Of a stretch of 64,000 nt of DNA, positions 45,111 to 47,310 are shown in pieces (the stretch's first letter is position 1; the number at the start of each line of letters is the position of its first letter). The DNA comes from Amycolatopsis alkalitolerans (GTDB taxonomy: Bacteria > Actinomycetota > Actinomycetes > Mycobacteriales > Pseudonocardiaceae), in NCBI RefSeq assembly GCF_006152065.1, contig NZ_VDFW01000001.1:124001-188000 (forward strand), in the 5' to 3' direction. The notes under the pieces were generated by a model. The model was not told the origin of the DNA. It searched no databases and saw only the letters and a list, made by a program, of their open reading frames with translations. A program made the position numbers and the translations under genes.

Positions 45111-45959
45111 GTGGCACAACTGCTCGGTCCGGCCGAGATCCGTGGGCTGGCGGCCGAGTTGGACGTGCGGCCGACGAAGAAGCTCGGCCAGAACTTCGTG
45201 CACGATCCCAACACCGTGCGCCGGATCGTGGAGCTGTCCGGGGTGCGGCCGGGTGACGCGGTGCTCGAGGTCGGCCCCGGGCTCGGTTCGCTCACGCTGG
45301 GGCTGCTGGACGCCGGAGCCCGGGTGTCCGCGGTCGAGATCGATCCCGTGCTGGCTGCGCGGCTCCCCGCGACCGTGCGGGAGCGCGCGCCCGAGGGCGT
45401 GCTGACCGTGCTCGAACGGGACGCGCTGAAGCTTCGCGCCGGCGAGTTGCCCGAGCCGCCCTCGACACTCGTCGCGAACCTTCCCTACAACGTCGCCGTG
45501 CCGGTCGTCCTGCACCTGCTCGCCGAACTGCCCTCGCTCGCCCGCGCCCTGGTCATGGTCCAGACGGAGGTCGCCGACCGGATGGCCGCCGCGCCCGGCG
45601 GCCGGATCTACGGGGTGCCGAGCGTGAAGCTCGCCTGGTACGGGAAGGTGCGGAAGGTCGCCGCCGTACCACGGGCGGTGTTCTGGCCGGTGCCGAACGT
45701 CGACTCCGCGCTCGTCGAGTTCGAACGGGGCGCCGAGCGGGCCGGCGACCGGGAGGCCGTCTTCGCGGTCATCGACGCCGCGTTCGCCCAGCGGCGCAAG
45801 ACGCTCCGCGCCGCGCTGGCCGGCTGGGCCGGTTCGGCCGAGCGGGCGGGCGCCGTGGTGCGGGCTGCGGGTGTCGATCCGGGTACTCGCGGTGAGCAAA
45901 TCACCATCAACGAGTTCGCGAAGATTGCGGAGAGTGCCCGCTTGCGGCCGTCCGTGTGA
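45111..45959 (+). CDS. rsmA: 16S rRNA dimethyladenosine transferase RsmA (KsgA)
   Basis: 282 aa. It dimethylates A1518 and A1519 of 16S rRNA using SAM. Family markers: [23 protein letters not shown] motif [29 protein letters not shown], catalytic [21 protein letters not shown], and [15 protein letters not shown]. Length is typical. GTG 45111 lacks an SD but has the TAAGGT box six nt upstream. In mycobacteria ispE follows directly; here five genes intervene. Confidence 0.96.
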
Positions 45960-46027
45960 TTGAGCGGTGTGATCTGCGGCCGGAGACTTGCGCGGAACGC
46001 GGGACATCCGTTCTACTTCTTAGGGTA

Positions 46028-46114
46028 TCCATCCCGAGCGGCTGAGAGACCTGGCTCGTCGAAGTCGCAGCAACCACCCTCCGCGGGGCAGGTGCTACCG
46101 CCAGGATCGATGGA
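46028..46114 (+). ncRNA. SAM-I (S-box) riboswitch
   Basis: The S-box core is readable: GAGCGGCTGAGAGACCTGG, then CTCGTCGAAGTCGCAGCAACC in the right place (k-turn, SAM-contact Asn-free core), and GGTGCTACCGCCAGG. Closing helix P1 is TCCATC (46028-46033) with GATGGA (46109-46114). The 3' P1 strand overlaps GGAGG (46112-46116), the ribosome site of the leader peptide beginning at 46122. Ligand-stabilised P1 would therefore hide that site, a translational OFF switch. The downstream MetN-like gene fits control by methionine status. Confidence 0.9.
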
Positions 46115-46121
46115 GGAAGCT

Positions 46122-46199
46122 GTGTACCTGACGCGAATGCTCACCAGACGCAGAGTCGTCGATGAGTGCCGCCGCACCGCGTGCGCGTGTCGTCGCTGA
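46122..46199 (+). CDS. Cysteine-codon leader peptide (putative attenuator uORF)
   Basis: 25 codons from GTG 46122, with ATG 46137 as an alternative start. GGAGG lies five nt upstream and is part of riboswitch P1. The peptide is basic and its second half contains Cys16, Cys21 and Cys23 in the pattern VVDECRRTACACRR, then a stop. Actinobacterial sulfur operons often have short uORFs with a VD-x-CR and Cys-rich tail that sense cysteine through ribosome stalling, and this one resembles them. The main gene starts 100 nt further on. Its role is inferred; the coding frame, SD and Cys cluster are visible. Confidence 0.65.
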   Translation: MYLTRMLTRRRVVDECRRTACACRR

Positions 46200-46299
46200 C
46201 CGTTTTCACCCGCTGAGTTCGATTCCTTTCGGACTGTCCTGTTCGGGCGGTCCAGTCGGTGACGGTCGGCGCTCGCGCGCCCGCGACGTGGAGCTTTCG

Positions 46300-47310
46300 T
46301 TGATCACAGTAGAAAATCTCACCAAGTCCTTTCCGGGAAAGAGTTCTCCCGTCCTCGCCCTGCGCGAGGTCAACCTCGAGATCGATGCCGGCGCGCTGTA
46401 CGGGGTCGTCGGCCCCGCCAAGTCCGGCAAGTCCACTCTGGCCCGAGTCGTTGCCCTGCAAGAGAAGCCGGACCGCGGCACGGTGCGGCTCGACGGGCTG
46501 AACACGGCGAGCCTCGACGGCCGCCGGTTGCGCGAGGCCCGCCGCCAGGTCGCGGTGCTGGACCCCGCTCCGGCGCTGAACGCCGAACGCACGATCGCCG
46601 GTAACGTGGCGGCCCCGCTCGAGCGACTGGGCGTAGACGGCCCGCAACGGCGAAACCGCGTCGGCCGCGTGCTCGACCTCGTCGGTCTCACGCAGCGCGC
46701 GACCCAGCAGCCGGGTGAGCTGACCGAGGCTCAGCGTCGCCGCGTCGCGATCGCCCGCGCGCTCGTGGCCGGGCCCGCGGTACTACTCGCCGACGACCCG
46801 ACAGCCGGTATTCCGGCCGACGAGGCCGGTCCGGTGCTGACCGTCCTCGACCGCGCGAGGGCCGAACTCGGCGTCACGGTCCTGCTCACTACCCAGGAAG
46901 GCAGCATCGTCGGGCGGGTGTGCGACGAGGTGGCCGTACTCGACTCAGGCCGCGTCATCGAGCACGGCACCGTGCTGGACCTGCTCGCGTCGCCGGGTAG
47001 CCGGATCGCCGAAACGCTGCTGCCCGCGATCGACACCCCCCGCGCGCAGACGGCGGCGTACGACCGGGCCGCGGACGTGGTGTTGATCGGCTTCGCGACC
47101 GTCGGCGCGCTCCTGCCGGAGGCTTCGATGCGGTTCGGCGTCGAACTCGCCACGATCGGCGGCGGGCTGGCCCGCGTCGGTGACACTCCGGTGGCGCGGT
47201 TCCGCATCGGCGTACGCGGCCGCCAGGCCGACAGCGCCTTGGCCTGGATCGCGGACCGGGGCGCGCACGTCACGCACCTCGCCAAGGGCCCCTGCAGCGT
47301 CGCGGCCTAG
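46300..47310 (+). CDS. MetN-like ABC/NIL-domain protein with degenerate ATPase motifs
   Basis: 336 aa, collinear with methionine-importer ATPase MetN: MITVENLTKSFPGKS start, Walker A GPAKSGKST intact, C-terminal NIL domain (about 255-336). Other ABC motifs are altered. The Q-loop position reads VLDPAP instead of FQ, the signature is LTEAQ instead of LSGGQ, Walker B/D-loop is DDPTAGIP instead of DEATSALD, and the H-loop is TQE instead of THE. ATP hydrolysis is therefore doubtful. No metI or metQ is adjacent. TTG 46300 is chosen: GGAG lies six nt upstream and the protein then begins like MetN. It is preceded by the SAM riboswitch and Cys leader. It may be a ligand-sensing or regulatory protein. 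Confidence 0.8.
   Translation: MITVENLTKSFPGKSSPVLALREVNLEIDAGALYGVVGPAKSGKSTLARVVALQEKPDRGTVRLDGLNTASLDGRRLREARRQVAVLDPAPALNAERTIAGNVAAPLERLGVDGPQRRNRVGRVLDLVGLTQRATQQPGELTEAQRRRVAIARALVAGPAVLLADDPTAGIPADEAGPVLTVLDRARAELGVTVLLTTQEGSIVGRVCDEVAVLDSGRVIEHGTVLDLLASPGSRIAETLLPAIDTPRAQTAAYDRAADVVLIGFATVGALLPEASMRFGVELATIGGGLARVGDTPVARFRIGVRGRQADSALAWIADRGAHVTHLAKGPCSVAA

Follow-up and report, generated by a model that had tools for sequence, protein, structure and literature searches.

The window analysed here, a stretch of 64,000 nucleotides from Amycolatopsis alkalitolerans, carries a SAM-I (S-box) riboswitch aptamer between rsmA (45111-45959) and a metN-like gene (46300-47310). All features described below as lying between or within these positions are on the forward strand. 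The aptamer occupies positions 46026-46116 and was assigned by cmscan to RF00162, the model being matched in full (1-108) at 57.6 bits (E 1e-10) against a gathering score of 44.4. In the cmscan alignment its P1 helix is formed by a 5′ strand, UCCAUC (46028-46033), and a 3′ strand, GAUGGA (46109-46114). The 3′ strand runs into GGAGG (46112-46116), which reads as the Shine-Dalgarno (SD) sequence of a short upstream open reading frame (uORF) and has its GGA, three bases, inside P1. This uORF (46122-46199) starts at GTG 46122, ends at TGA 46197-46199 and encodes in 25 codons the peptide VYLTRMLTRRRVVDECRRTACACRR, with cysteines at residues 16, 21 and 23. The initial annotation of this DNA had already placed the overlap of P1 with GGAGG, the uORF and its three cysteines here, and its coordinates are right; the case for the observation proved stronger than it was put there.

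The gene downstream encodes a MetN-like ABC ATPase with a NIL domain, ABC_tran and NIL both scoring above their Pfam cutoffs. The best NCBIfam model for its product, MetN (TIGR02314), scores 179 bits, below the equivalog cutoff of 499.7. We take its start as TTG 46300, which is in a different frame from the uORF, with GGAG at 46290-46293 as the SD; GGAG or AGGAG stands there in 98 of 98 orthologous loci. Between the uORF and this gene lies a hairpin (46232-46252) without a U-tract, conserved in the genus in an alignment of 15 distinct sequences with weak covariation. A scan of 45900-46400 found no intrinsic terminator (hairpin plus U-tract) between the uORF and the metN-like gene, one weak terminator site upstream of the aptamer and no sigma-70 promoter by consensus. 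The ATPase itself looks orphan and unusual. MetI above cutoff is absent from this genome (best 42.4 versus 212 bits), the next gene downstream in the window is on the opposite strand, and in another genus (g7) a MetI-like piece lies 3′ of the metN relative. The position of the usual catalytic Glu is taken by Asp (LLADDPT) in 35 of the 38 genes read, and the LSGGQ motif is degenerate, with LTEAQ in the window.

The metN-like gene is present in 19/19 genomes of the genus and in 168 of 200 genomes of the family, covering 41 of its 46 genera. We compared the upstream regions of a first set of 98 loci (19 from the genus and 79 others, 35 genera by hand tally) and reached the remaining six genera through their SAM-I loci (L316, L317, L318, L319, L321 and L322), the sum of 35 and 6 genera, all 41, being hand-counted from the family table. 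Together these 104 loci represent 96 of the 168 family genomes with a metN-like match plus eight more genomes of the genus. In every one of them, and thus in all 41 genera with the gene, a uORF starts directly past P1 and ends in a common peptide; the six added loci, such as L316 with its leader GATGGGAG, have the same plan as the first 98. Contigs carrying the P1-SD string (51 stretches) are mostly from Amycolatopsis and Lentzea, and also from Saccharomonospora, Kutzneria, Actinokineospora, Prauserella, Thermocrispum and others.

The arrangement is kept in detail. The string GATGGAG, which holds the P1 3′ strand, was found with the upstream CCATC of the 5′ strand and GGTGC in all of the first 98 loci. 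Each of them also has, 5-11 nt past GGAG, an in-frame start whose frame continues into the conserved peptide. The uORFs range from 22 to 89 codons, and an in-frame start after P1 at every locus despite this variable length argues for more than chance. As SD, 81 loci have GGAGG and the other 17 have GGAGT or GGAGC; the uORFs of those 17 (27-89 codons) are mostly N-terminally extended and still begin directly past P1, staying open to the common peptide end. SAM-I itself was recognised in 98/98 loci, 83 through an S-box core pattern and the other 15 through cmscan, which was positive for 20 of 20 loci scanned, those 15 included, and for 18 of 18 genus loci. A conserved uORF SD within the aptamer's P1, as expected of a riboswitch-gated uORF, was present in 98/98 loci and in 6/6 further ones.

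A SAM-I aptamer placed over the SD of a cysteine-type leader peptide is, as an architecture, well supported. The proposal that P1 controls uORF initiation is supported by the SD-in-P1 plan of all 104 loci and by a peptide that is under selection, and SAM control of the leader is likely. Folding with and without P1, suggested in the initial annotation as a check, did not bear this out in the same way. In the free window RNA the P1 pair probabilities are only 0.48-0.56 and the uORF SD is mostly paired, opening it costing 5.1 kcal/mol and, with the P1 5′ strand blocked, 4.7 kcal/mol. Because P1 is formed only to this degree and the SD is hidden even with P1 blocked, a clean switch is not apparent from folding alone.

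Substitution patterns indicate that the uORF peptide is under selection. Over 93 of the 98 loci (five were missed by the pattern and included later in the codon count), which give 79 distinct cores of 17 codons, pN/pS is 0.30; mean pairwise differences are 0.23 for first, 0.14 for second and 0.52 for third codon positions. Constraint at the RNA level in place of coding does not agree with this pattern, third positions varying most. A repeated element was likewise rejected as an explanation, for a profile of the uORF found one strong place in each of 13 genus genomes searched (E 3.2e-12 to 1.2e-9), with the best of the remaining genus matches listed at E 0.0062. In the class, the profile matched at E<=1e-4 in 9 of 246 genomes, this genome included.

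These data also bear on the reading that the uORF is open by accident and that RNA structure alone keeps its sequence. An SD-like string is to be expected since SAM-I P1 strands are purine-rich, and the 30 best other SAM-I loci of the class have no such uORF by pattern, both of which would suit an accident. Start, frame and peptide are nevertheless kept in 104/104 loci across varied lengths, with the wobble positions the most variable, so that this reading is already contradicted and we regard it as highly improbable.

The peptides share the consensus LTxRRVVDQCRRTVxACRR (28 peptides), in which R6, D10, R14 and C19 (alignment numbering) are invariant. With positions counted from the conserved Asp, 48 of the 93 loci have Gly and 43 have Cys at D+2 (Cys16 in the window), D+7 (Cys21) is Ser in 33, Cys in 32 and Thr in 26, and D+9 (Cys23) is Cys in 93/93. 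With Cys16 and Cys21 variable and Cys23 invariant, what is conserved is a one-cysteine peptide and not a cysteine run. Of the expectation that the uORF and its Cys codons would be conserved beside the aptamer of metN loci, the uORF and Cys23 held up while Cys16 and Cys21 did not.

The conserved cysteine is always written with the same codon. At 46188-46190, nine codons past the conserved Asp, UGU stands in 98/98 loci and in 6/6 more, while the wobble base varies at other positions. The codon is rare in the surroundings: TGT makes up 21 of 157 Cys codons in 47 long ORFs of the window, a set that may include false frames, and 1 of 71 Cys codons in 38 metN genes. The other cysteines of the metN leaders use TGT at 24 of 32 places for D+7 and at only 13 of 44 for D+2. 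We found the same preference in leaders of other loci, located with the NF042933 model or with the uORF profile (L223-L252 and L261-L300). From 81 such loci, 17 without a readable motif were left out and the remaining 64 gave 56 distinct cores, of which 55 have TGT at D+9; TGC is used for the D+2 Cys in 48 of 53 cases and for the D+7 Cys in 32 of 39. One of the 56 cores is a second cysteine-type leader in this same genome (L300, G000:C83:122388-122444; TTLLTQRRAVDLCRVRSSLCLS), also with UGU at D+9. To our knowledge, no bias towards UGU at D+9 has been reported. Genes following the other cysteine-type leaders include sulfurtransferase-like and OsmC-like proteins, with further ones judged by eye, and this variety makes pairing with one target RNA an unlikely cause of the UGU. 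One synonymous codon thus stays fixed at one position whatever gene follows, which raises the question of whether such a leader reads the charging of tRNA at that one codon or works through its peptide within the ribosome. In contrast, the cysS uORF of Rhodobacterales, as described in the available part of PMC8632094, is dominated by UGC.

The initial annotation had taken the uORF for a cysteine-type leader, and it does resemble the actinobacterial Cys-rich leader family NF042933 (Ms5788A Cys-rich leader peptide) at the sequence level, although the window peptide scores 18.8 bits (E 0.00098) against a curated cutoff of 45. Among the relatives of the uORF, 13 of 28 match the model at E up to 1, the best at 0.00019, and NF042933-like leaders occur at E<=0.01 in 154 of 197 class genomes, 28 being above cutoff. 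Cysteine-responsive leader peptides of the Ms5788A type have reportedly been described by Canestrari in 2020. Their name-giving trait is a series of Cys codons close to the stop; the window peptide has three cysteines, but only one of them is invariant over the 93 loci, and such a series is not conserved. Shared with these leaders are the short peptide, a core of the form LTxRRxVDxxR...C and the UGU at the same place. The differences are that many of the NF042933-type leaders have Cys runs where the uORF has one invariant Cys, and that those examined have no SAM-I core upstream. SAM-I beside ordinary Cys leaders was rejected, the S-box core being found at 0 of the 28 loci with a motif match out of 38 examined, a count in which L226 is a wrong motif. 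Cysteine sensing by the metN leader is plausible.

How the leader would sense is a separate matter. The peptide RRVVDxxRRTxxxC might itself stall the ribosome near the UGU and, within the tunnel, sense a small sulfur compound or the state of the tRNA and not a plain lack of Cys-tRNA. The residues before the cysteine are as conserved as the cysteine (R6, D10 and R14 beside C19 in the 28 peptides), and Cys leaders ahead of other genes have this core too. Slow decoding or demands on the RNA could also account for the keeping of an Arg-rich peptide, and we consider nascent-peptide arrest improbable here. The reading that we prefer is that of two sensors in series, in which SAM-I gates the uORF and translation of the uORF, prolonged by cysteine shortage, opens the metN-like gene (probability roughly 0.55).

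Folding gives this coupling a possible physical basis. In the minimum free energy fold of this locus, a uORF stretch (46158-46175) is the predicted partner of the SD and start region of the metN-like gene (46288-46304), whose SD bases are mostly paired. In 41 of the 82 distinct loci, opening the metN SD costs on average 5.84 kcal/mol with the native uORF versus 4.59 with dinucleotide-shuffled and 4.79 with synonymously permuted uORFs (Wilcoxon p 4.6e-5 and 9.6e-5, values that ignore kinship and are too small because the loci are related). Compared with shuffled controls, the uORF RNA is thus predicted to mask the metN SD more strongly. The predicted partner stretch differs from locus to locus. 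A single conserved anti-SD helix was rejected, strict complements of the metN SD being present in only part of the 98 loci and at differing places.

We then placed ribosomes on the uORF in static folding of all 82 loci. The mean cost for the metN SD is 5.92 kcal/mol without a ribosome and 4.79 with one at the uORF start. With one ribosome at the UGU it is 5.81 (p 0.37), and in neither the 98-locus nor the 82-locus folding did one ribosome at the UGU or at the stop lower the mean cost. Queues reaching back from the UGU bring it to 5.06 (two ribosomes) and 4.11 (three). In the window RNA alone, the cost drops from 7.7 to 3.4 with a ribosome at the UGU and to 6.5 with one at the stop. On average over loci, then, the models do not support unmasking of metN by a single stalled ribosome, and their best reading is that uORF translation as such, aided by slow or queued ribosomes, would open the gene. 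Termination-reinitiation was also considered; in the loci listed, 61-176 nt separate the uORF stop from the metN match, a distance that we judged too great.

From the aptamer, the SD within P1, the selected peptide and the invariant UGU, which the comparison of loci establishes, we infer a two-input logic comprising a SAM effect, a cysteine effect and the direction of both. Bound SAM would close P1 over the uORF SD, and the leader peptide would not be made; uORF RNA devoid of ribosomes would pair with the metN SD and keep the MetN-like protein low, and Rho may also act. When SAM is low, P1 would open, ribosomes would enter the uORF and the pairing between uORF and metN would be broken. Should Cys-tRNA be short as well, ribosomes would slow or queue at the UGU, the uORF would stay open longer and metN expression would rise further. 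Low SAM would in this way act as the condition and low cysteine as the amplifier.

The coupling could also be a relay of SAM alone, the riboswitch setting uORF translation, which would act on metN either by unfolding the RNA or by keeping Rho away, with the Cys codon a remnant of the leader family. Such relays have precedents in the Mbox and ppe2 B12 switches of Mycobacterium tuberculosis, which act through a uORF with no amino-acid sensing described in the available parts of PMC12810186 and PMC11260477. The absence of a mean effect of a ribosome at the UGU on the metN SD, and the variation of Cys16 and Cys21, are consistent with it. A mere relay would not, however, need a selected peptide or an invariant Cys written with a rare UGU in 104/104 loci, and we consider it unlikely that SAM is the only input. 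The two sensors in series remain our preferred account of the locus.

SAM-I riboswitches were found in 202 of 296 class genomes, and their loci were sampled. The sample consisted of the 30 best loci, the second SAM-I of this genome (L001) and 27 loci of 18 chosen genomes. L001 precedes a threonine synthase gene (TIGR00260 above cutoff) whose SD adjoins P1; the 30 best loci are by eye similar to this type, and in these 30 and L001 no leader peptide was found by pattern. Beyond metN, nine tandems of SAM-I and leader were found in four genomes. Two genomes of genus g5 account for six of them (L320, L323, L324, L326, L327 and L328); a genome from a different family within the order has L337 and L351, and a genome from a different family within the class has L339. 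Two of these cases are weaker: the L328 aptamer is below cutoff (42.4 bits) and its uORF has no stop nearby, and the motif of L339 is looser. Pieces of the next genes point, with scores below curated cutoffs, to a substrate-binding protein at L320, an NtaA/DmoA-type FMN monooxygenase at L323, an FAD amino-acid oxidase at L326 and an ABC ATPase at L339, the remaining names being by eye only. D+9 is UGU in seven of the nine tandems and UGC in L324 and L326 (L326 and L328 read by eye).

These tandems suggest, tentatively and with odds that we put somewhat short of even, that SAM-I gated Cys-type leaders are a recurrent actinomycete two-sensor module standing before metN, NtaA/DmoA-type monooxygenase, FAD oxidase, substrate-binding lipoprotein and ABC genes. 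The second sensor would be the ribosome at one rare UGU behind a conserved nascent peptide, and UGU at that place would be a class-wide signature of Cys-leader sensors. One g5 genome (G022) has six SAM-I matches, one of them below cutoff, of which five have a leader before different genes (L320, L324, L326, L327 and L328); they could possibly form a small SAM and cysteine regulon. Other SAM-I loci in the sample have targets of their own. In genus g3 the riboswitch precedes acetyltransferase-like genes, judged by eye, with no such leader (L314, L315 and L325), the gene SD adjoining P1 in L314 and L315, and in two genomes of family f36 it stands ahead of an apparent peroxiredoxin gene, also by eye (L349 and L350), an unusual target.

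If our reading is right, one leader reads both SAM and cysteine, through a riboswitch wired in series with an amino-acid sensor based on the ribosome. P1 and the frame of the peptide stay linked across 41 genera, and simple reporters could test this link. Riboswitch-gated uORFs are known and so are Cys leaders, and the combination of both is not found in the literature searched: among the matches listed in a search mostly without subscription journals, there was no paper on a SAM-I riboswitch controlling a leader peptide. The statement that no such case had been described thus stands for the pairing of SAM-I with a Cys leader; for riboswitch-controlled uORFs as such it does not, these having been described before (available parts of PMC12810186 and PMC11260477).

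The closest relatives of the arrangement are these M. tuberculosis leaders, the Mbox of pe20, which controls a conserved uORF (PMC12810186), and the B12 switches with uORFs of metE and ppe2 (PMC11260477). As far as the available text of both papers goes, pe20 and ppe2 share with our locus a ligand-bound aptamer that hides the uORF SD and a uORF between switch and main gene; their ligands and aptamers differ, and their uORFs are not described as amino-acid sensors. The ppe2 uORF and gene moreover have an overlapping stop and start (PMC11260477, in the part available), whereas here the uORF and the metN-like gene are far apart. A leader peptide before a metN gene is known from Streptomyces lividans, where metL, with Met and Cys codons and a different peptide, precedes metNIQ; the accessible portion of PMC8079986 reports it as leaderless and mentions no riboswitch. 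Cys-rich small ORFs are treated in the available parts of PMC4633059, PMC9094748 and PMC13236596, and Cys leader peptides of Actinobacteria in that of PMC1262725, where riboswitch base stems overlap initiation sites directly. Among riboswitches, the accessible text of PMC9373788 presents a SAM-II case with the SD within the riboswitch and a distant start, and that of PMC9481103 tandem riboswitches, leader peptides not being mentioned there. The Salmonella mgtCBR leader, with two short ORFs, also brings more than one regulatory input into one leader; both of its elements, in the available part of PMC3641672, are short ORFs or attenuators, with no metabolite aptamer gating a Cys leader. The common actinobacterial SAM-I before threonine synthase, in this genome and in S. 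lividans (PMC8079986, in part), shares the aptamer class and a P1 3′ strand adjoining an SD. There, with no leader peptide seen, P1 meets the main gene's own SD, whereas at the metN-like locus it meets the SD of the uORF.
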